Assembly: GCA_943787745.1 (NCBI GenBank)
Contig: CALSNJ010000002.1
Span: 186,001 to 250,000, forward strand
Length of the DNA: 64,000 nucleotides
From: an uncultured Alphaproteobacteria bacterium
GTDB lineage: Bacteria > Pseudomonadota > Alphaproteobacteria > UBA6615
Direction: 5' to 3'
The translations under genes and the position numbers were made by a program. The notes below the pieces were generated by a model that saw nothing but the letters and a program-made list of their open reading frames with translations, made no database searches and was not told the origin of the DNA. Position 1 is the first letter of the stretch; each line of letters begins with the position of its first letter. Shown one piece after another: positions 44,160 through 52,858 of the stretch.

Positions 44160-44224
44160 GTCTCAGTTTCGTCCTGTGACGATGATGTTGCAACTCTCAC
44201 AGATACGTGACGCGGAGTGATTTT

Positions 44225-44302
44225 ATGAAGCGCGGATCATTGATATCTACTGTGCATGATCATCGTGCTTCTCCATCAAGCAGATTGCATGGAGAGACTT
44301 GA
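44225..44302 (+). CDS. Possible 25-aa micro-ORF ending at a terminator
   Basis: ATG 44225 has GGAG at 44214-44217 with 7-base spacing, unusually good for a chance ORF. The 25-codon frame (starting MKRGSLISTV, rich in Ser and His) stops at 44300-44302, exactly where the terminator stem begins. It could be a small protein, a leader peptide for the DUF3179 genes, or chance within a small RNA. No homology can be judged. Confidence 0.3.
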   Translation: MKRGSLISTVHDHRASPSSRLHGET

Positions 44303-44329
44303 ACGGCGGCGGAGACGCCGCCGTTTTTT
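44302..44329 (+). terminator. Intrinsic terminator with no annotated gene before it
   Basis: AACGGCGGCG (44302-44311), loop GAGA, then CGCCGCCGTT (44316-44325) and a T-run to 44329. It is a textbook plus-strand terminator in the divergent gap before the first DUF3179 gene. The upstream minus-strand DUF488 gene cannot be its client, so it ends a short transcript or attenuates the DUF3179 operon. Confidence 0.85.
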
Positions 44330-44394
44330 CCGAGCCTTTGCGGGCGATGATCAATGAAAAACGCAACAAAGATGACACAAACGGGATGTTTCTT

Positions 44395-45387
44395 ATGCCA
44401 CTCTTTCTAACTCAAAAATGGGTCCGTGCAGGAGCTATGCTCAGCGCTGGAATCATGTTCCTCGCGGTGTCGGCAACCGGTCAGGCGAACCCGGCATTCT
44501 GGCAACTCGAATGGCCGGATACGGACTTTTCGAAACATTCTGTTCCGTTTGATGAGATTTTCTCAGGCGGTGTCCCGCGCGATGGCATTCCGCCGATTTA
44601 TGATCCGAAATTTGCTTCGATTGAGGAGGTCAGCCGTCACTATGAAGGGACCGAGCCGGTCATCTCCGTGGCCATTGATGGGAAAGCCCGTGCCTATCCG
44701 CTTGGTATTCTGATGACCCACGAGATCGTCAATGACGAACTCGCGGGCATGCCGATCGCGGTGACATATTGCCCGCTTTGTAACTCCGCGGTCGTGTTTG
44801 ACCGCAACGTCAACGGGAACATCCATACTTTTGGGGTCTCCGGTAAGCTTCGGAATTCTGATCTGGTGATGTGGGACCATGAAACCAACAGCTGGTGGCA
44901 GCAGTTCACGGGTGTCGGCATTGTCGGGCAGGAAACCGATACACAGCTGACGATGCTTCCGGTCCGTGTGGTTTCCTTTGACAAATTCAAGGACGCCCAT
45001 CCGTCTGGAGAGGTTCTTTTGAGCCCGCGCGGTGGTGCGGGATTCAATCCTTATGCCGGGTATGACTCATCGTCCCGACCGTTCCTCTATCGTGGAAGTT
45101 TCCCTGAGGATATCCGTCCACTCGATTATGTTGTCGCTGTGGGTGACCAGGCTTGGGCGCTTGATCTCCTGAGCAAGGAGAAGAAGGTTGAAACCGATGA
45201 TCTATTGATCACCTGGGAATCCGGCCAGAACTCCGCCATGGATCGCCGGAACATTTCGCAGGGCCGCGATATCGGCAATGTGACGGTCCAGCGCAAAGAA
45301 GACGGCAAGCTTGTCGACGCCGTCCATGACGTCACCTTTGCTTTCTCGTTCCACGCGTTTAATCCCGAAGGTACGATCCACAAATAG
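44395..45387 (+). CDS. DUF3179 family exported protein, copy 1
   Basis: The protein has about 330 aa from ATG 44395. A signal peptide or anchor (AGAMLSAGIMFLAVSATGQA) precedes the DUF3179 domain. Core motifs are RAYPLGILMTHEIVNDE, the Cys pair in YCPLCNSAVVFDR, LVMWDHETNSWWQQFTG and a C-terminal FAFSFHAFNPEG. The function of the family is not known; the CxxC pair suggests a redox or metal role in the periplasm. In-frame starts at 44347 and 44386 are possible. It is the most divergent of three tandem copies. Confidence 0.85.
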   Translation: MPLFLTQKWVRAGAMLSAGIMFLAVSATGQANPAFWQLEWPDTDFSKHSVPFDEIFSGGVPRDGIPPIYDPKFASIEEVSRHYEGTEPVISVAIDGKARAYPLGILMTHEIVNDELAGMPIAVTYCPLCNSAVVFDRNVNGNIHTFGVSGKLRNSDLVMWDHETNSWWQQFTGVGIVGQETDTQLTMLPVRVVSFDKFKDAHPSGEVLLSPRGGAGFNPYAGYDSSSRPFLYRGSFPEDIRPLDYVVAVGDQAWALDLLSKEKKVETDDLLITWESGQNSAMDRRNISQGRDIGNVTVQRKEDGKLVDAVHDVTFAFSFHAFNPEGTIHK

Positions 45388-45402
45388 GATCGGGACGAGA
45401 CA

Positions 45403-46440
45403 GTGCTGCGAACATATCTCGGTACACGCGGAGGCCGGTCCCAACCGGGGCTGGCCTTTGGCATTTTTGCAATCGCTGCATTTTCGTTCGGGTTTGCGTT
45501 CTCCGATGCCTTCGCACAGGGGGTGAGCCAATGGCAGGGCGAGTTTCCAAAGACAGATTTTGAAACCCGGGTCATCGAGCTTTCGGAAATCGGTGATGAT
45601 GGCAACACGCGCGATTCCATTCCGCCGGTGCGCGAGCCACGATATGTGGGTGTCGACACGGTCGACAACATTGGCCCGTTGGAGCCGGTTCTTTCGGTCG
45701 GTATCAATGGGGACTTTCGCGCATATCCGCTGCGTATTTTGCTCTGGCATGAAATCGTCAACGAAGAGATTGGCGGTGTGCCCGTTTTGATCAGCTACTG
45801 TCCGCTGTGCAACTCCGGTGTGGTTTTTGACCGACGGGTTGATGGCCAGCTTCTCGAGTTTGGTAATACCGGGCGTCTGCGTCATCGGGATATGGTGATG
45901 TATGATCAGCAGACAGAAAGCTGGTGGCAACAGTTTACCGGTGAGGCCATCATTGGCAGCCTCTCGGGAAAGACAATGACAGCGCTTCCGGCACGTCTCG
46001 AATCTCTCGCGAAGTTCAAAGCGCGCGCGCCCAAAGGCAAGGTTCTGGTGCCCGAAGATGATGGCGCGCGCCCCTATGGTGCCTCGCCCTATATGGGTAT
46101 GGATACCCAAGTGATCCCGCGTGCGCTGCAGGCGGTCCATTTCCCATATCCGCTTCCCGATGGCATCGGGCCTCTGGACCGTGTTGTCGTGGTTGGTGAC
46201 GAAGCCTGGACACTGGCACATTTACGAGAAAACACGCCGGTTGCCAAAGATGGGCTGGTTCTGACCTGGGACGCCGGACAGAATTCCATTCATGACGCGC
46301 GATCGATCGCCCGGAGCCGCGATGTGGGAAACGTGATTGTTCAGAAAGAAACAGTCGGTGGTCTGGCGGATGTGCCCTATGACGTTGTCTTTGCATTCTC
46401 GTTCCGGGCCTTCAATCCGGATGGCGAATTGCATTTTTAG
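45403..46440 (+). CDS. DUF3179 family exported protein, copy 2
   Basis: The protein has 345 aa from GTG 45403, 15 bases after copy 1. The signal peptide (AFGIFAIAAFSFGFAFSDAFAQ, cleaved near residue 39) is followed by the domain. Motifs are GPLEPVLSV, RAYPLRILLWHEIVNEE, YCPLCNSGVVFDRR, MVMYDQQTESWWQQFTGEA and FAFSFRAFNPDG. It is closer to copy 3 than to copy 1, so it belongs to a later duplication. Its last 20 bases overlap copy 3, implying coupled translation. Confidence 0.87.
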   Translation: MLRTYLGTRGGRSQPGLAFGIFAIAAFSFGFAFSDAFAQGVSQWQGEFPKTDFETRVIELSEIGDDGNTRDSIPPVREPRYVGVDTVDNIGPLEPVLSVGINGDFRAYPLRILLWHEIVNEEIGGVPVLISYCPLCNSGVVFDRRVDGQLLEFGNTGRLRHRDMVMYDQQTESWWQQFTGEAIIGSLSGKTMTALPARLESLAKFKARAPKGKVLVPEDDGARPYGASPYMGMDTQVIPRALQAVHFPYPLPDGIGPLDRVVVVGDEAWTLAHLRENTPVAKDGLVLTWDAGQNSIHDARSIARSRDVGNVIVQKETVGGLADVPYDVVFAFSFRAFNPDGELHF

Positions 46441-47416
46441 AATTGTCGCATTGGGCGTCGGTGTTCTGATCACCGTGTCGTCGGCCTTCGCCGCTGATCT
46501 TGAGACATGGCAACACGAGTTCCCGAAAACGAATTTCGCAAAGGCAACCGTGCCGCTGGATGAGATCCGGGATGACGGCAATTTTCGTGACACCATCGCG
46601 CCGATCGATGATCCGGTTTTCCAGTCTGTGTCGGCGCTGACGGCGATGGGCCCACTGGAGCCGGTTCTCTCGGTTGTGATCCAGGGCGATGCGAGGGCCT
46701 ATCCGCTGCGGATGCTGCTGTGGCACGAGATCGTCAACGACACCGTGGGCGGCGTTCCGCTTCTGGTGAGTTACTGCCCGCTTTGTAATTCAGGTGTTGT
46801 GTTTGATCGACGTGTGGACGGAGACGTATTGCGGTTTGGCAATACCGGTCGTATCCGCCATTTCGATATGGTCATGTACGACCATGAAAATGAAAATTGG
46901 TGGCAGCAATTCACCGGTGAAGCGATCATTGGAAATGATGCGGGTGCGTATTTGAAGGCGATCCCCGCACGGCTTGAATCTCTCGCCCGGTTTCGTGCGC
47001 GAGCGCCGCAGGGGCTGGTGATGATTCCGGATGACGTTATGCGGCAACCATACGGCGCGACGGCTTATTATGGCATGGATAGTCTTTGGGAGACCCAGTC
47101 AAGGAACATGCTGCGCGAGCGGTATCCGTATACATTGCCCGAGGATGTTTCTCCTCTCCTGCGCGTGGTTGTTGTTGAGGGGAAAGCCTGGGCCGTTGAA
47201 CTGCTTCGCGCCGTCAGTCGTATCGAGCATGGAGAAACGGTTCTGAGTTGGATCGAAGGTCAGAACTCGATCCACGACCATGCAATTGTCTCTTCAGGCC
47301 GTGATGTCGGGAATGTCATCGTGCAAAGGGCGGGGCGTGATGTTCCTTATGACGTCACATTCGCATTCGCCTTTCGGGCGTTCTGGCCTGATGGTGAGAT
47401 TGTGTTTTTGAAGTAA
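46421..47416 (+). CDS. DUF3179 family exported protein, copy 3
   Basis: The protein has 331 aa from ATG 46421, inside the end of copy 2. The signal peptide is VALGVGVLITVSSAFAADL. Motifs are GPLEPVLSVVIQGDARAYPL, LLWHEIVND, YCPLCNSGVVFDRR, MVMYDHENENWWQQFTGEA and FAFAFRAFWPDG. All three copies keep the CPLCNS motif, so none looks decayed. A molybdopterin oxidoreductase gene follows after 66 bases; whether they work together is unknown. Confidence 0.87.
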   Translation: MANCIFRIVALGVGVLITVSSAFAADLETWQHEFPKTNFAKATVPLDEIRDDGNFRDTIAPIDDPVFQSVSALTAMGPLEPVLSVVIQGDARAYPLRMLLWHEIVNDTVGGVPLLVSYCPLCNSGVVFDRRVDGDVLRFGNTGRIRHFDMVMYDHENENWWQQFTGEAIIGNDAGAYLKAIPARLESLARFRARAPQGLVMIPDDVMRQPYGATAYYGMDSLWETQSRNMLRERYPYTLPEDVSPLLRVVVVEGKAWAVELLRAVSRIEHGETVLSWIEGQNSIHDHAIVSSGRDVGNVIVQRAGRDVPYDVTFAFAFRAFWPDGEIVFLK

Positions 47417-47482: not shown

Positions 47483-49588
47483 ATGCCATTGGATCAGAAC
47501 CGCGCCGAAACGCAGCAGGAAGACCGGACAGACGTCCAGGTTTTTCATTCAGCTTGCCCGCATGATTGCCCGAGCACCTGTGCGCTTGAAGTGGAACGGC
47601 TCGATCCGGAAACCATCGGTCGTGTGCGGGGCGCGAGTGCGAATTCCTACACCGCTGGTGTTATCTGCGCGAAAGTCGCGCGTTATGCCGAGCGTGTTCA
47701 TCACCCCGACCGGCTCAAGAAACCGTTGCGTCGGATCGGCGCAAAGGGTGAAGGCCGCGAGGCTTTTGAAGAGATTTCGTGGGATGAGGCGCTTGACACG
47801 GTTGCCGAGAAGCTCAGGTCGGCCGTTGCGAAATTCGGCCCCGAAACGGTCTGGCCCTATTACTACGCGGGCACCATGGGGCTGGTCCAGCGTGACGGGA
47901 TCAACCGTCTGCGCCATGCCATGGGCTATTCGCGACAGCATTCGACTTTCTGCAGCACGCTTGCTGACGCGGGATGGTTGGCCGGGGCAGGTTCCAAGAA
48001 AGGTGTCGATGCACGTGAGATGGCAGAGTCCGATCTGATCGTGATCTGGGGCTGCAATCCCGTGAGCACGCAGGTCAATGTTATGACCCATGCCTCTCGC
48101 GCCCGAAAAAACAGGGGCGCGAAGATCGTTGTTGTTGATCCGTATGTAACCGAGACAGCCAAGCAGGCCGATATCCACCTGATGCCGAACCCGGGAACGG
48201 ATGGCGCTTTGGCCTGTGCGGTTATGCATGTCCTGTTTCGCGATGGTCACGCAGACCGCGCTTATCTGGAGAAGTACACAGCAGGACATGCGGAGCTGGA
48301 AGTTCATTTGGGAGCGAAAACGCCGGAATGGGCAGAGGAAATTACTGGGATACCCGCAGCTGAAATCGAAGCCTTTGCCGCGCTCTATGGCCAGACCAAT
48401 CGCAGCTATTTGCGGCTTGGCTTCGGGTTTACCCGATCTCGCAATGGTGCCGTACAGATGTTTTCGGCCAGTTGTTTGCCAGCGGTGACGGGCGCCTGGC
48501 AGTACCCCGGCGGTGGCGCGCTCTATTCGAACTCCGGAATTTATGGAATCGACAAGACCATCATCGAAGGGCTGGATAGGGTCGATCAGCAAACGCGTAT
48601 TCTCGACCAATCGCGGATTGGACCGATCCTTACAGGTGATCCGCGCGATTTGGGTGATGGTCCGCCGGTCACCGCGATGTTTGTCCAAAATACCAATCCG
48701 ATGAATGTGGCCCCCGATCTCGGCAAGGTGCGAGAAGGCTTCTCGCGCGAAGATCTGTTCGTCTGTGTCCATGAACAGTTTCTGACCGAGACGGCGCAGA
48801 TGGCTGACATCGTTTTACCAGCGACGACGTTCCTCGAGCATGACGATATGTATGTGGCCGGCGGGCACACGCATCTTCAGGTTACAAAGGCTGTTATTGC
48901 CCCGGTTGGAGAGGCGCGGCCAAACCATTGGGTGCTCGGGGAACTCGCCAGACGATTGGGGGCGGAGCATCCCGGTTTCGACATGAGCGAATGGGAGCTG
49001 ATGGACGATGCCTTGCAACGCTCTGGCTATGCCGATGCGCAAAGTGTCTGGGAAGGTCATTGGGATGACCGTGTTGAGGGGTTTGATGATGCCCATTTCC
49101 TCAACGGCTTTGGCCATGCGGACGGCAAGTTCCACTTTATGCCGGACTGGTCAAAAATCGGGGGTAACCATGCGGGTATGCCGACTTTGCCGGACCATGA
49201 CACTGTGATCGACGGACGGGATGATGCCCACCCGTTTCGCCTTGTAACGGCGCCATCAAGGAACTACCTCAATACAAGTTTCACAGAGACTGCGACGAGC
49301 CAGAAGCGCGAAGGGCGGCCTGAAGCTCAGATACATCCCGAGGTTTGTAAGGAAATGGGTTTGGAGACCGGAGATCAGGTCAGGATCGGAAACGGCCAAG
49401 GGTCTGTTGTGGTGCATGTGCGACCCACCGAAGGGCTTCGCCGCGGAACGGTGATTGTTGAAAGTGTTTGGCCCAACAAAGCCTTTATTGAAGGCATCGG
49501 GATCAATCTGCTTGTCAGTGCAGAGGCCGGGAAACCCAATGGCGGTGCCGTATTTCATGACACTGCAGTCTGGCTGCAGACAGCATGA
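47483..49588 (+). CDS. Molybdopterin-dependent oxidoreductase with an N-terminal [4Fe-4S] cluster
   Basis: The protein has 701 aa. The [4Fe-4S] ligands are Cys25, Cys29, Cys33 and Cys62 (ACPHDCPSTC ... VICAKV). The bis-MGD fold follows: IWGCNPVSTQVNVM, VVVDPYVTETAKQADIHL, FVQNTNPMNVAPD, and a C-terminal dinucleotide-binding domain (RLVTAPSRNYLN). There is no twin-arginine signal, so it is cytoplasmic. It resembles formate dehydrogenase/nitrate reductase-type enzymes of unknown substrate; the Mo ligand position cannot be assigned reliably. Its stop overlaps the mipZ start (ATGA). Confidence 0.92.
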   Translation: MPLDQNRAETQQEDRTDVQVFHSACPHDCPSTCALEVERLDPETIGRVRGASANSYTAGVICAKVARYAERVHHPDRLKKPLRRIGAKGEGREAFEEISWDEALDTVAEKLRSAVAKFGPETVWPYYYAGTMGLVQRDGINRLRHAMGYSRQHSTFCSTLADAGWLAGAGSKKGVDAREMAESDLIVIWGCNPVSTQVNVMTHASRARKNRGAKIVVVDPYVTETAKQADIHLMPNPGTDGALACAVMHVLFRDGHADRAYLEKYTAGHAELEVHLGAKTPEWAEEITGIPAAEIEAFAALYGQTNRSYLRLGFGFTRSRNGAVQMFSASCLPAVTGAWQYPGGGALYSNSGIYGIDKTIIEGLDRVDQQTRILDQSRIGPILTGDPRDLGDGPPVTAMFVQNTNPMNVAPDLGKVREGFSREDLFVCVHEQFLTETAQMADIVLPATTFLEHDDMYVAGGHTHLQVTKAVIAPVGEARPNHWVLGELARRLGAEHPGFDMSEWELMDDALQRSGYADAQSVWEGHWDDRVEGFDDAHFLNGFGHADGKFHFMPDWSKIGGNHAGMPTLPDHDTVIDGRDDAHPFRLVTAPSRNYLNTSFTETATSQKREGRPEAQIHPEVCKEMGLETGDQVRIGNGQGSVVVHVRPTEGLRRGTVIVESVWPNKAFIEGIGINLLVSAEAGKPNGGAVFHDTAVWLQTA

Positions 49589-50418
49589 ACGCGACCATCA
49601 TTGTCCTGGGAAATGAGAAGGGCGGCACCGGCAAATCTACGACCGCGATGCACATTATCGTCGGCCTGATGCATGAGGGTTATACGGTGGGTGCGATCGA
49701 TCTGGATGCACGACAGAGCACCCTGGCACGGTATTTCGATACACGCCGGATTTATGGTGCCAAAAAGGGAGTCGAGCTGTCACACCCGCTGTACCGCGCG
49801 ATCGCGCAGAGCCAGCTTCAAGATCGTCTGGCGGCGGAGGAAGCTGACCGAAACAGTCTCGCAAACACTCTGACGGAGATGACCAAGACCTGCGATATCG
49901 TTGTTATCGATACGCCGGGTAGTGACAGCCCGTTGTCGCGGATCGGTCATTCCTATGCCGATATTCTTGTGACGCCGATGAATGATAGCTTTGTCGACCT
50001 TGATCTGTTGGGGCGCATTGACCCCGAAACCAACGAGGTGGTCGCCCTGAGTGATTACGCCGAGATGGTTTGGGAGCAGAAGAAAGTCCGCGCCGGGCGC
50101 GACGGAGGGTCGATCGACTGGATTGTGATGCGCAATCGCCTTGCCGCGCTGGACTCGCGCAACAAGCGCAACATGGATTCTGCGCTCGAAGCTCTTTCGG
50201 CACGTTTGGGGTTTCGGCTCGCCCATGGTTTCAGCGAGCGGGTTATCTTTCGTGAATTGTTCCTGAAAGGTCTGACCTTGCTCGACATTCGTGAACAAGG
50301 TGCAGACGTGGCGCTGACGATGTCGCATATCGCAGCTTTGCAGGAGGTGCGGAACCTTCTCCACGCGTTGGGTGTGCCGGAAGTTGTTGCTGCACCAGAC
50401 GTTGCGGCGTCGGGTTAG
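49585..50418 (+). CDS. mipZ: Division-plane positioning ATPase MipZ
   Basis: The protein has 277 aa. It is a ParA/MinD-type ATPase with deviant Walker A GNEKGGTGKSTTAMH, switch I region DLDARQSTLARYFDTR and Walker B VVIDTPGSDSPLSR. The IDPETNEVVALSDYAEMVW and SIDWIVMRNRLAALDSRNKRN segments are specific to MipZ. In alphaproteobacteria it forms a gradient from the poles and inhibits FtsZ assembly away from midcell. It starts in the stop of the oxidoreductase gene and is followed by VWA and DnaJ genes. Confidence 0.95.
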   Translation: MNATIIVLGNEKGGTGKSTTAMHIIVGLMHEGYTVGAIDLDARQSTLARYFDTRRIYGAKKGVELSHPLYRAIAQSQLQDRLAAEEADRNSLANTLTEMTKTCDIVVIDTPGSDSPLSRIGHSYADILVTPMNDSFVDLDLLGRIDPETNEVVALSDYAEMVWEQKKVRAGRDGGSIDWIVMRNRLAALDSRNKRNMDSALEALSARLGFRLAHGFSERVIFRELFLKGLTLLDIREQGADVALTMSHIAALQEVRNLLHALGVPEVVAAPDVAASG

Positions 50419-50426
50419 GCGCTGCG

Positions 50427-51152
50427 ATGGCAGGCGACAAGCGCGATCCAAATCTCCCCGCGGACCAGTCCACGCGGTCAGATATTGATGCGTTCCTGCA
50501 GAAGGTTGCCGCAACGCCTGTGCAAGGCCCGGTCGGTCGACGTGGTCGTCTGTTGTTTGCGGTGGACGCGACGGCCAGTCGTGAACCGACCTGGGATATG
50601 GCGTGTCAAATTCAGTCAGAGATGTTCACTTCGACAGATGATCTTGGGGGTCTGGAAGTACAACTCGCATTCTATCGCGGGTTCGGCGAAATGAAGGTCA
50701 CCTCCTGGCTGGATTCGCCCGACGAACTGGTTCGGCGCATGTTGAAAGTGCGCTGTCTCGCGGGACGGACCCAGATCCGAAAGCTATTGCGTCACACGCT
50801 CAAGGAAACCAAGAGTGAGAAGGTTGATGCCGTGGTTTTTGTCGGTGATGTTGTCGAGGAGGATATCGACGAACTTGGTCACCAGGCCGGTAAGCTGGGA
50901 TTGGTGGGGACCCCGATATTTGTCTTCCATGAAGGCGGCGAGCCCACATCACGCCGAGCGTTCGAGCAAATCGCGCGCCTCTCTGGTGGAGCCTATTGCA
51001 GCTTTGATGCTGGAAGTGCCCAGCAGTTACGTGATCTGTTGGCTGCCGTTGCCGTATTTTCGGCTGGGGGGCGTCGGGCCCTTGCAGATCTTGGCAAGTC
51101 ACGCGGTGGACGGGTGCTCCAGATTGCCGATCAGATGAGCGGGAAAAGGTAA
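50427..51152 (+). CDS. VWA-like domain protein
   Basis: The protein has 241 aa. A von Willebrand factor A-like fold is suggested by LLFAVDATASREPTW (MIDAS-type D-x-T-x-S) near residue 43, the later DAVVFVGDVVEEDIDEL, and GTPIFVFHEGGEP. No signal peptide or membrane segment. Genes of this type often lie between mipZ and a DnaJ-domain gene in alphaproteobacteria, but its role is not established. It starts 8 bases after mipZ. Confidence 0.85.
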   Translation: MAGDKRDPNLPADQSTRSDIDAFLQKVAATPVQGPVGRRGRLLFAVDATASREPTWDMACQIQSEMFTSTDDLGGLEVQLAFYRGFGEMKVTSWLDSPDELVRRMLKVRCLAGRTQIRKLLRHTLKETKSEKVDAVVFVGDVVEEDIDELGHQAGKLGLVGTPIFVFHEGGEPTSRRAFEQIARLSGGAYCSFDAGSAQQLRDLLAAVAVFSAGGRRALADLGKSRGGRVLQIADQMSGKR

Positions 51153-51158
51153 ACGCGT

Positions 51159-51887
51159 ATGGCCTGGATTGCATTTGGACTGTTTTTTCTGATCGGTCTT
51201 TATCTCGTTGGACGCTGGTATGTGAATGCGCAACCCGCCGATGTGTTTCGCGCGTTGCGCTGGCTTGCCATGATAATTGTTGTGATCGGGATCGCAGCTA
51301 TCGCTCTGTCGGGGCGTTGGAACCTGCTTTGGGTTCTTTCATTTCCGGCATTGCCGTTGCTAATGCGCTGGCGGGCGATGCGCGCTATGCAAAAGAACGC
51401 GCGCGGGCCTAAAGGTGGTCAACAGAGTCAGGTCGACACGCGGTTTTTGCGCATGACACTCGAGCACGATACCGGTGATATGGACGGCGAAGTGCGTGAA
51501 GGCTCTTTCACGGGACAGATGCTTTCCGAGCTGAAGCTTGGTGAATTGATCGAGCTTTGGCGCGAATGCGCGCGCGAAGATGAACAATCGCGCGGTGTAT
51601 TGGAGAGCTATCTTGATCGTGAGCACGCCGAATGGCGCGATGTGGTGGGTGAGGGGGCGTCAGCCGATGGCCATGATCGCACGCGCGGCGGCGAAAGCCC
51701 TTGGACCCGCAACAGTATGAGCGTTGAGGAAGCCCTTGAGGTTCTTGGCCTTGAGCCTGATGCGTCCAATAGTGATATCGAGAGTGCCTATCGCAATGAA
51801 ATGAAGCGGGCCCATCCCGATCAGGGCGGGTCGGACTGGATGGCTGCCAAGGTCAACCAGGCGCGGGACGTCCTGTTGAGCCGCTAA
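51159..51887 (+). CDS. Membrane protein with C-terminal J domain
   Basis: The protein has 242 aa. Two or three N-terminal membrane segments (IAFGLFFLIGLYLVGRWY, LRWLAMIIVVIGIAAIALSG, NLLWVLSFPALPLLM) are followed by a charged middle part. The J domain is C-terminal (about residues 188-242): EALEVLGLEPDASNSDIESA and the HPD motif in KRAHPDQGGSDW. It would stimulate a DnaK-type chaperone at the inner membrane. It is the third gene of the mipZ cluster. Confidence 0.9.
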   Translation: MAWIAFGLFFLIGLYLVGRWYVNAQPADVFRALRWLAMIIVVIGIAAIALSGRWNLLWVLSFPALPLLMRWRAMRAMQKNARGPKGGQQSQVDTRFLRMTLEHDTGDMDGEVREGSFTGQMLSELKLGELIELWRECAREDEQSRGVLESYLDREHAEWRDVVGEGASADGHDRTRGGESPWTRNSMSVEEALEVLGLEPDASNSDIESAYRNEMKRAHPDQGGSDWMAAKVNQARDVLLSR

Positions 51888-51976
51888 CCCGGTACGCTTG
51901 CGTCGCATCGCGCCGCTATGGCAAAAGTGCCGCTCCTGCCGCATGGCGCACCGCATACGGACTTCGTTCCAGACAG

Positions 51977-52858
51977 ATGGCAAACCGCGTACGCAAGGCG
52001 ATCTTCCCGGTCGGCGGCATGGGGACCAGATTTCTTCCCGCCACCAAGGCGATGCCGAAGGAAATGCTCCCGGTTGTTGACCGGCCTTTGATTCAATACG
52101 CCGTTGATGAAGCGCGCGCTGCTGGGATCGAGCAGTTCATATTCGTCACTGGGCGCGGCAAGAGCGCAATCGAGGACCATTTCGACCACAGTGTGGAACT
52201 GGAAGGCCTGCTGAAGGCCCGCTCCAAGGACGATGCGCTTGCTGATTTGCGAGATACATTGCTCCCACCCGGTGACATTGCATATGTGCGCCAACAAGAG
52301 CCACTGGGGCTGGGACATGCGGTTTGGTGCGCACGCCACCTGGTGGGCAACGAACCGTTTGCCGTGTTGCTTGCGGATGACCTGATCCAGGCGGAAACAC
52401 CCTGCCTGAAACAAATGGCAGATGTTTTTGAGGAAACCGGTGGCAACGTTATCGCTGCTATGGAGGTGCCTCTGGAGCATACCTCACGCTACGGCATTAT
52501 CGATGCAAAGGGCGCTGAGGGTGATGTCCGCCCTGTCCATGGGCTGGTTGAAAAACCTGCAGCCGGTACAGCCCCTTCGAACCTCGCTGTGATTGGCCGG
52601 TACATTCTGATGCCAGAGGTGTTTGCTGAGCTTGAGCGCCAGGAAACCGGAGCCGGCGGCGAAATCCAACTCACTGATGCCATGGCGCGCCTTATTGGCC
52701 GCCAGCCGTTTCACGGTCTTGCCTTCGAGGGTCATCGCTTTGACTGTGGCGACAAGTTGGGGTTTCTGGAAGCAAACATCGCGTTTGCCCTTGCACGGGA
52801 TGACCTTGGCCCGGGAACCCGCGATATGCTCAAACGTCTCGGAGACGCGTCCGTATGA
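51977..52858 (+). CDS. galU: UTP-glucose-1-phosphate uridylyltransferase
   Basis: The protein has 293 aa. It makes UDP-glucose from UTP and glucose 1-phosphate. The nucleotide-binding start is AIFPVGGMGTRFLPATKAMPKEM, with DRPLIQYAVDEA, and GLVEKPAAGTAPSNLAVIGRY as the later signature. It heads a three-gene run galU-ugd-phosphohexomutase with an ATGA overlap, which provides UDP-glucose and UDP-glucuronate for surface glycans. Confidence 0.95.
   Translation: MANRVRKAIFPVGGMGTRFLPATKAMPKEMLPVVDRPLIQYAVDEARAAGIEQFIFVTGRGKSAIEDHFDHSVELEGLLKARSKDDALADLRDTLLPPGDIAYVRQQEPLGLGHAVWCARHLVGNEPFAVLLADDLIQAETPCLKQMADVFEETGGNVIAAMEVPLEHTSRYGIIDAKGAEGDVRPVHGLVEKPAAGTAPSNLAVIGRYILMPEVFAELERQETGAGGEIQLTDAMARLIGRQPFHGLAFEGHRFDCGDKLGFLEANIAFALARDDLGPGTRDMLKRLGDASV

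Follow-up and report, generated by a model that had tools for sequence, protein, structure and literature searches.

Three DUF3179 genes in tandem

The window, a stretch of 64,000 nucleotides from an uncultured alphaproteobacterium, carries three DUF3179 genes in a row on the forward strand. P1 (44395..45387) starts with ATG and has a second in-frame ATG at 44386 that is kept in relatives too; P2 (45403..46440) starts with GTG, and P3 (46421..47416) with ATG. An earlier note on this DNA had described three head-to-tail DUF3179 reading frames, with 15 nt between P1 and P2 and a 20-nt overlap of P2 and P3, and the coordinates agree. Family membership was borne out by full-length matches to PF11376 (profile positions 1-291 of 292), with E values of 1.6e-76, 5.1e-72, and 3.7e-61 and scores of 258, 243, and 208 bits for P1, P2, and P3, respectively, the curated Pfam cut-off being 27 bits. 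As the note had it, CPLCNS(A/G)VVFDR and WWQQFTG are present in all three proteins. The near-invariant HEIVN, CPLCN, and WWQQ are likewise retained, and motifs of the HEIVND, CPLC, and WWQQ type recur in the orthologues. Translational coupling, also proposed earlier, is plausible for P2-P3, whose 20-nt overlap is exact in two genera, the window's own and g5 (gaps of ~40 nt occur in g7 and g9), but not for P1-P2, where the spacing varies between relatives.

A hydrophobic export signal is predicted in each of P1, P2, and P3, in line with the exported location originally assigned to them. Across the family, a hydrophobic segment was seen at the N-terminus of 163 of 185 members, and only 12 of those 163 have a Tat-like pair, which indicates that DUF3179 proteins are mainly exported unfolded; a cytoplasmically built iron-sulphur cluster is therefore unlikely in them.

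The window genome has two further DUF3179 copies, at C2:1540924 and C5:209788. The C2 copy (G000; L144 4430-5836) encodes a DUF3179 protein of a second, longer type, with a CTLC motif and an extra N-terminal region, which resembles haloarchaeal proteins annotated as 'DUF3179 domain-containing (seleno)protein' (L231, L232). The family ranges over marine bacteria, haloarchaea, one cyanobacterium, and Deinococcus; no relatives were found in phage records. On Thiothrix and Pseudanabaena plasmids (L229 1-4852, L230 1558-4837), DUF3179 lies near genes for thioredoxin-domain and peroxiredoxin-like proteins, cytochrome c peroxidase, and a GDCCVxC (seleno)protein.

A conserved leader RNA upstream of P1

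P1 is preceded by a structured leader RNA of ~80 nt (44254..44335, forward strand) and, further upstream on the same strand (about 44192..44230), by a stretch of TCAC/GTGAC repeats that stands out in the alignment of triplet carriers and may act as an operator or promoter. Within the leader, a conserved ATGATCATCGTGCTTCTCC block (44256-44274) is followed by a small hairpin and then by a strong intrinsic terminator (44302..44330), all on the forward strand; two base pairs of the terminator show compensatory changes in four genomes. A covariance model of the leader (R1) matched 12 of 60 genomes, always where a DUF3179 locus of the window's GTDB family begins. It matched once per genome except in G011, where a weak reverse-strand match falls on the same place. 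There was no R1 match in sampled genomes outside this family, and no Rfam match to the leader. The leader is conserved, operon-specific, and new here. Because P1 starts ~60 nt past the terminator, the arrangement makes attenuation or a separate small RNA likely.

A leader peptide (MIIVLLH...) was considered and rejected: its ATG is ACG in two genomes, and the differences in G007 affect the encoded peptide, so that the constraint evidently acts on the nucleic acid. The likeness of MIIVLLH to the start of P1 was set aside as chance or local, the best match being confined to genus g7.

Conservation of the triplet and its neighbours

At least seven relatives, belonging to four genera, have the P1-P2-P3 order. 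The complete triplet stands at the same locus in G009, G011, G015, G017, and G019, and is present but divided over contigs in G004 and G013. Other relatives have different copy numbers there, namely five in a row in G007, four in G012, two (P1 and P2) in G005, and P1 alone in G003 and G022; some relatives have cut the locus down to P1 or lost DUF3179 from it. Three as a number is thus not essential. In G001, from the window's genus, the locus consists of a single broken DUF3179 gene (L146 6190-7237), perhaps a hybrid of P1 and P3, and the match to the downstream molybdoenzyme (G001:C16:76977-79112) crosses three TGA codons, which suggests that the operon is decaying in that genome.

DUF3179 occurs in 17 of 23 relatives from the same GTDB family, at least three matches (fragments counted) being present in 13 of the 23. 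Other families of the class have DUF3179 in 13 of 36 genomes, with one or two matches each. An even sample of the phylum gave 47 other genomes with DUF3179, of which 39 had one match, seven had two, and one had three, one of these three being a fragment. The flanks are mostly common to triplet carriers, at protein identities of about 55-91%: genes for ADH, GS-like, 2OG-Fe, and DUF488 proteins on one side, and for the molybdoenzyme, MipZ, VWA, DnaJ-like, and GalU on the other. The survey of copy number and neighbours that the note had called for thus finds the triplet and its neighbours conserved inside the GTDB family. The contrary picture, of usually single copies and a strain-specific triplication without conserved neighbours, does not hold, since single copies prevail only outside the family.

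The gene directly after P3 (47483..49588, forward strand) encodes a molybdopterin enzyme, as noted earlier; it is a cytoplasmic oxidoreductase of MopB type with no visible signal peptide, and the suggested link to DUF3179 fared less well. Among the matches listed for this enzyme none reaches an NCBIfam cut-off, and its best match of solved structure is an F420 formate dehydrogenase. It adjoins DUF3179 in further loci (L074, L092, L108), yet it was not found in G012, where it is absent beside the four-copy DUF3179 cluster, and it is in place at loci without DUF3179 in G021, G018, and G008. Co-occurrence among 60 relatives (21 with both, 24 with neither, and 10 and 5 with one of the two) was given no weight because the genomes are related and unequal in size. 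The block from 47483 to 52858 (molybdoenzyme-MipZ-VWA-DnaJ-like-GalU) is conserved in several alphaproteobacterial lineages, also without DUF3179. Given the different compartments, the absence from G012, and the persistence without DUF3179, the link is weak, and the molybdoenzyme, often adjacent but part of a wider conserved block, was kept out of the mechanism. When neighbouring genes in other alphaproteobacteria were clustered and judged from the start of their sequence only, what emerged was the conserved MipZ/GalU block, along with a small number of unrelated genes that mostly looked like housekeeping ones; the clustering brought up no thiol-redox partner conserved beside DUF3179 genes.

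Divergence of the three copies

In the phylogenetic tree, the copies form three orthologous clades that match gene order, with SH-aLRT values of 100 (P1), 97 (P2), and 100 (P3); the P2 clade takes in one G012 copy. P2 and P3 are close relatives, and P1 lies on a separate branch together with the C5 copy. Each of the three is under purifying selection (dN/dS 0.07-0.14), and active-site residues are lost in none of them, so the earlier statement that three intact copies are retained stands. Together with the order and neighbours conserved in the family, these features mean that the triplet is neither a strain-specific triplication nor a local accident.

Gene-dosage amplification with little specialisation could account for the range of one to five copies at the locus and for the close kinship of P2 and P3. 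We nevertheless judge it very unlikely, because the clades are ancient, ordered, and separately conserved, the copies within the window genome share only about 45-56% identity, there is no sign of homogenisation, and differences around the active site are fixed. The fixed differences between P1 and P2/P3 are at residues 115 (T/W/W), 139 (A/G/G), 155, 156, 158, and 167; residue 115 adjoins His116 and residue 139 adjoins CPLCNS.

The note had suggested a hetero-complex or substrate variants. An obligate hetero-oligomer, for example a periplasmic heterotrimer for whose assembly the triplet is kept, would fit the gene order fixed over four genera, the tight spacing, and the P2-P3 overlap kept in two genera. 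It is harder to square with complete active sites in all three proteins, which leave no visible division between catalytic and scaffold subunits, with relatives that have P1 alone, P1 and P2, or four to five copies, and with the one copy of most other genomes; we regard it as distinctly unlikely. To judge from the sequences, the fixed differences near the His and the CxxC fit substrate variants at least as well as a hetero-complex, and, taken with the intact sites, they favour three working isoenzymes over one catalytic subunit with scaffolds.

Internal duplication and predicted fold

DUF3179 is an internal duplication, a feature new here. In members with a long C-terminal half, the two halves align with each other in within-protein blastp searches (E 2.7e-12 for L036, 2.7e-11 for L038), and comparison of the profiles of the two halves with hhalign gave a probability of 97.6% and a score of 62.6. 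Column-shuffled controls reached at most 11.2 except for three of 100 runs, which scored about 128-130; one of these three was inspected and aligned a single column, so that scores of ~129 were dismissed as a numerical artefact of hhalign. Alphaproteobacterial members have a shorter C-terminal repeat, and for them the half-half comparison gave P 1.1e-5. The His and the CxxC are confined to the N-terminal repeat; where that repeat has CPLC, the C-terminal one reads, for instance, NPGV.

AlphaFold models of P2 and L036 were both confident (pLDDT 92.7 and 94.6). Sequence searches gave no PDB relative at E 1, and Foldseek searches of the PDB with the models gave no match reaching E 0.001. VIA-align matched the N-terminal half of the P2 model to Rieske proteins (best Z 5.3, 95 residues, 3.0 A) and matched each half of L036 (77-180 and 237-353) to the same fold (best Z 7.1, 91 residues, 2.7 A). 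All matches listed by VIA were Rieske proteins; the 50 listed for L036 had 76-105 residues aligned and Z values of 5.3-7.1, and all Z values stayed below 8, the value under which VIA warns that a match may be no more than a common arrangement. The alignments run across most of the Rieske domain for both halves; in one example, model residues 78-177 were placed on chain residues 4-98, leaving no more than 9 residues of the model and 4 of the chain unaligned. That two sequence-related halves both match the same fold strengthens the case, and the likeness of both halves to Rieske domains remains a predicted resemblance.

The CxH-x(15-20)-CxxH cluster motif is absent from DUF3179; mature P1-P3 have only the two Cys of CPLC. 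Pfam searches with 119 DUF3179 members gave no PF00355 match at E values up to 10, and hhalign comparison of DUF3179 with Rieske sequences gave a weak, out-of-register score of 15.1 (best shuffled score 11.3). The spacing H116-x16-C133xxC136 equals that of CxH-x16-CxxH and raised the possibility of a degenerate cluster site. This was rejected because CPLC aligns before the ligand loops: by the aligned ranges it falls near Rieske chain residues 25-41, and the loops lie at about chain residues 45-68, in keeping with the position of the motif in Rieske sequences.

The candidate active site

Broader alignments show H116, N120, C133, P134, G157, D168, and Q177 to be invariant (P2 numbering, carried over from a separate alignment), and C136 to be replaced by Thr in some members (CPLT in L006, L035, and L233). 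Replacement of a conserved Cys by selenocysteine usually signals a catalytic redox residue. Two reviews (PMC9312934, PMC13188914), citing Zhang and Gladyshev 2007, count DUF3179 as a selenoprotein family in which the motif is UxxC/T. We read the U of this motif as C133, whose position it fits. Residue conservation and the published selenocysteine forms together suggest redox chemistry for the family. These selenocysteine forms are literature reports, and none turned up in the DNA analysed: the window copies have no in-frame TGA at the catalytic Cys, the C133 codon being TGC or TGT, and a possible selenocysteine codon in G179 was discounted, as it sits in a decayed fragment and gives no evidence for selenocysteine. 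No function test of DUF3179 was found in the literature searched.

Alternatively, C133, C136, and H116 may bind a metal acquired in the periplasm (copper, zinc, or iron), so that these proteins would use a Rieske-like scaffold to carry metal or to act as metalloenzymes. The invariant His and Cys, near each other in sequence, and the predicted scaffold speak for this; the change of C136 to Thr in some members and the reported UxxT form, which leave few ligands, and the position of the site away from the Rieske ligand positions speak against it, and we consider it unlikely. The best reading is that DUF3179 proteins would be exported thiol or selenol oxidoreductases, represented here by three putatively specialised isoenzymes.

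Proposed explanation

According to the explanation that we prefer, and to which we give about an even chance, P1, P2, and P3 would be Sec-exported isoenzymes of one family of thiol oxidoreductases (selenol oxidoreductases in other species), two-domain and Rieske-like, that are kept for specialisation. Each protein would consist of two Rieske-like beta domains in tandem, with [2Fe-2S] ligands in neither. The N-terminal domain would hold the site, made up of His116, Asn120, a nucleophilic Cys133, and a resolving Cys136, with Asp168 and Gln177 conserved equally with the site residues; the C-terminal domain would have lost it. The gene would have multiplied in the ancestor of the alphaproteobacterial family, and the copies may have been retained because their substrates or partners within the cell envelope differ. 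P1-P3 would form one operon transcript behind the terminator-ended leader RNA, with expression probably attenuated via the terminator. The whole combination, in which a tandem Rieske-fold pair lacks a cluster and has its His/Cys(Sec) site elsewhere, and in which three isoenzymes are governed by a previously undescribed attenuator RNA, is more tentative, and we put it somewhat short of even.

The internal duplication, the likely fold, and the few invariant residues turn DUF3179 into a testable enzyme family. The conserved triplet, with its fixed near-site differences, is a natural set of isoenzymes for a substrate search, and the leader RNA offers a handle on the timing of gene expression.

Relation to known systems

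The triplet is a genuine cluster of paralogues from an uncharacterised family, conserved and in fixed order; it is known in kind, and its novelty lies in the detail. The suggestion of an undescribed system needs qualifying: DUF3179 is already named and listed among selenoprotein families. The window proteins belong to DUF3179 (PF11376) by full-length matches above the cut-off and by their HEIVND, CPLC, YDRxTxS, and WWQQ motifs; elsewhere the family usually has one copy, whereas here its genes form a triplet in fixed order behind a leader RNA specific to the operon. In the models, both halves of DUF3179 resemble the Rieske domain (PF00355; Rieske ferredoxins and NirD-type domains included), a likeness at Z values below 8, but the family has neither CxH...CxxH nor a Pfam Rieske match, its CPLC precedes the ligand loops, and its export is mostly by Sec. 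Like the CxxC or UxxC/T thiol/selenol oxidoreductases, it has a CxxC with an invariant first Cys, for which replacement by selenocysteine is reported in the literature. Unlike thioredoxin-like oxidoreductases, in which the CxxC is at the N-terminus of a helix, DUF3179 is predicted to be beta-rich, and the P2 model places the CxxC between strands 126-133 and 138-143 rather than at a helix start.
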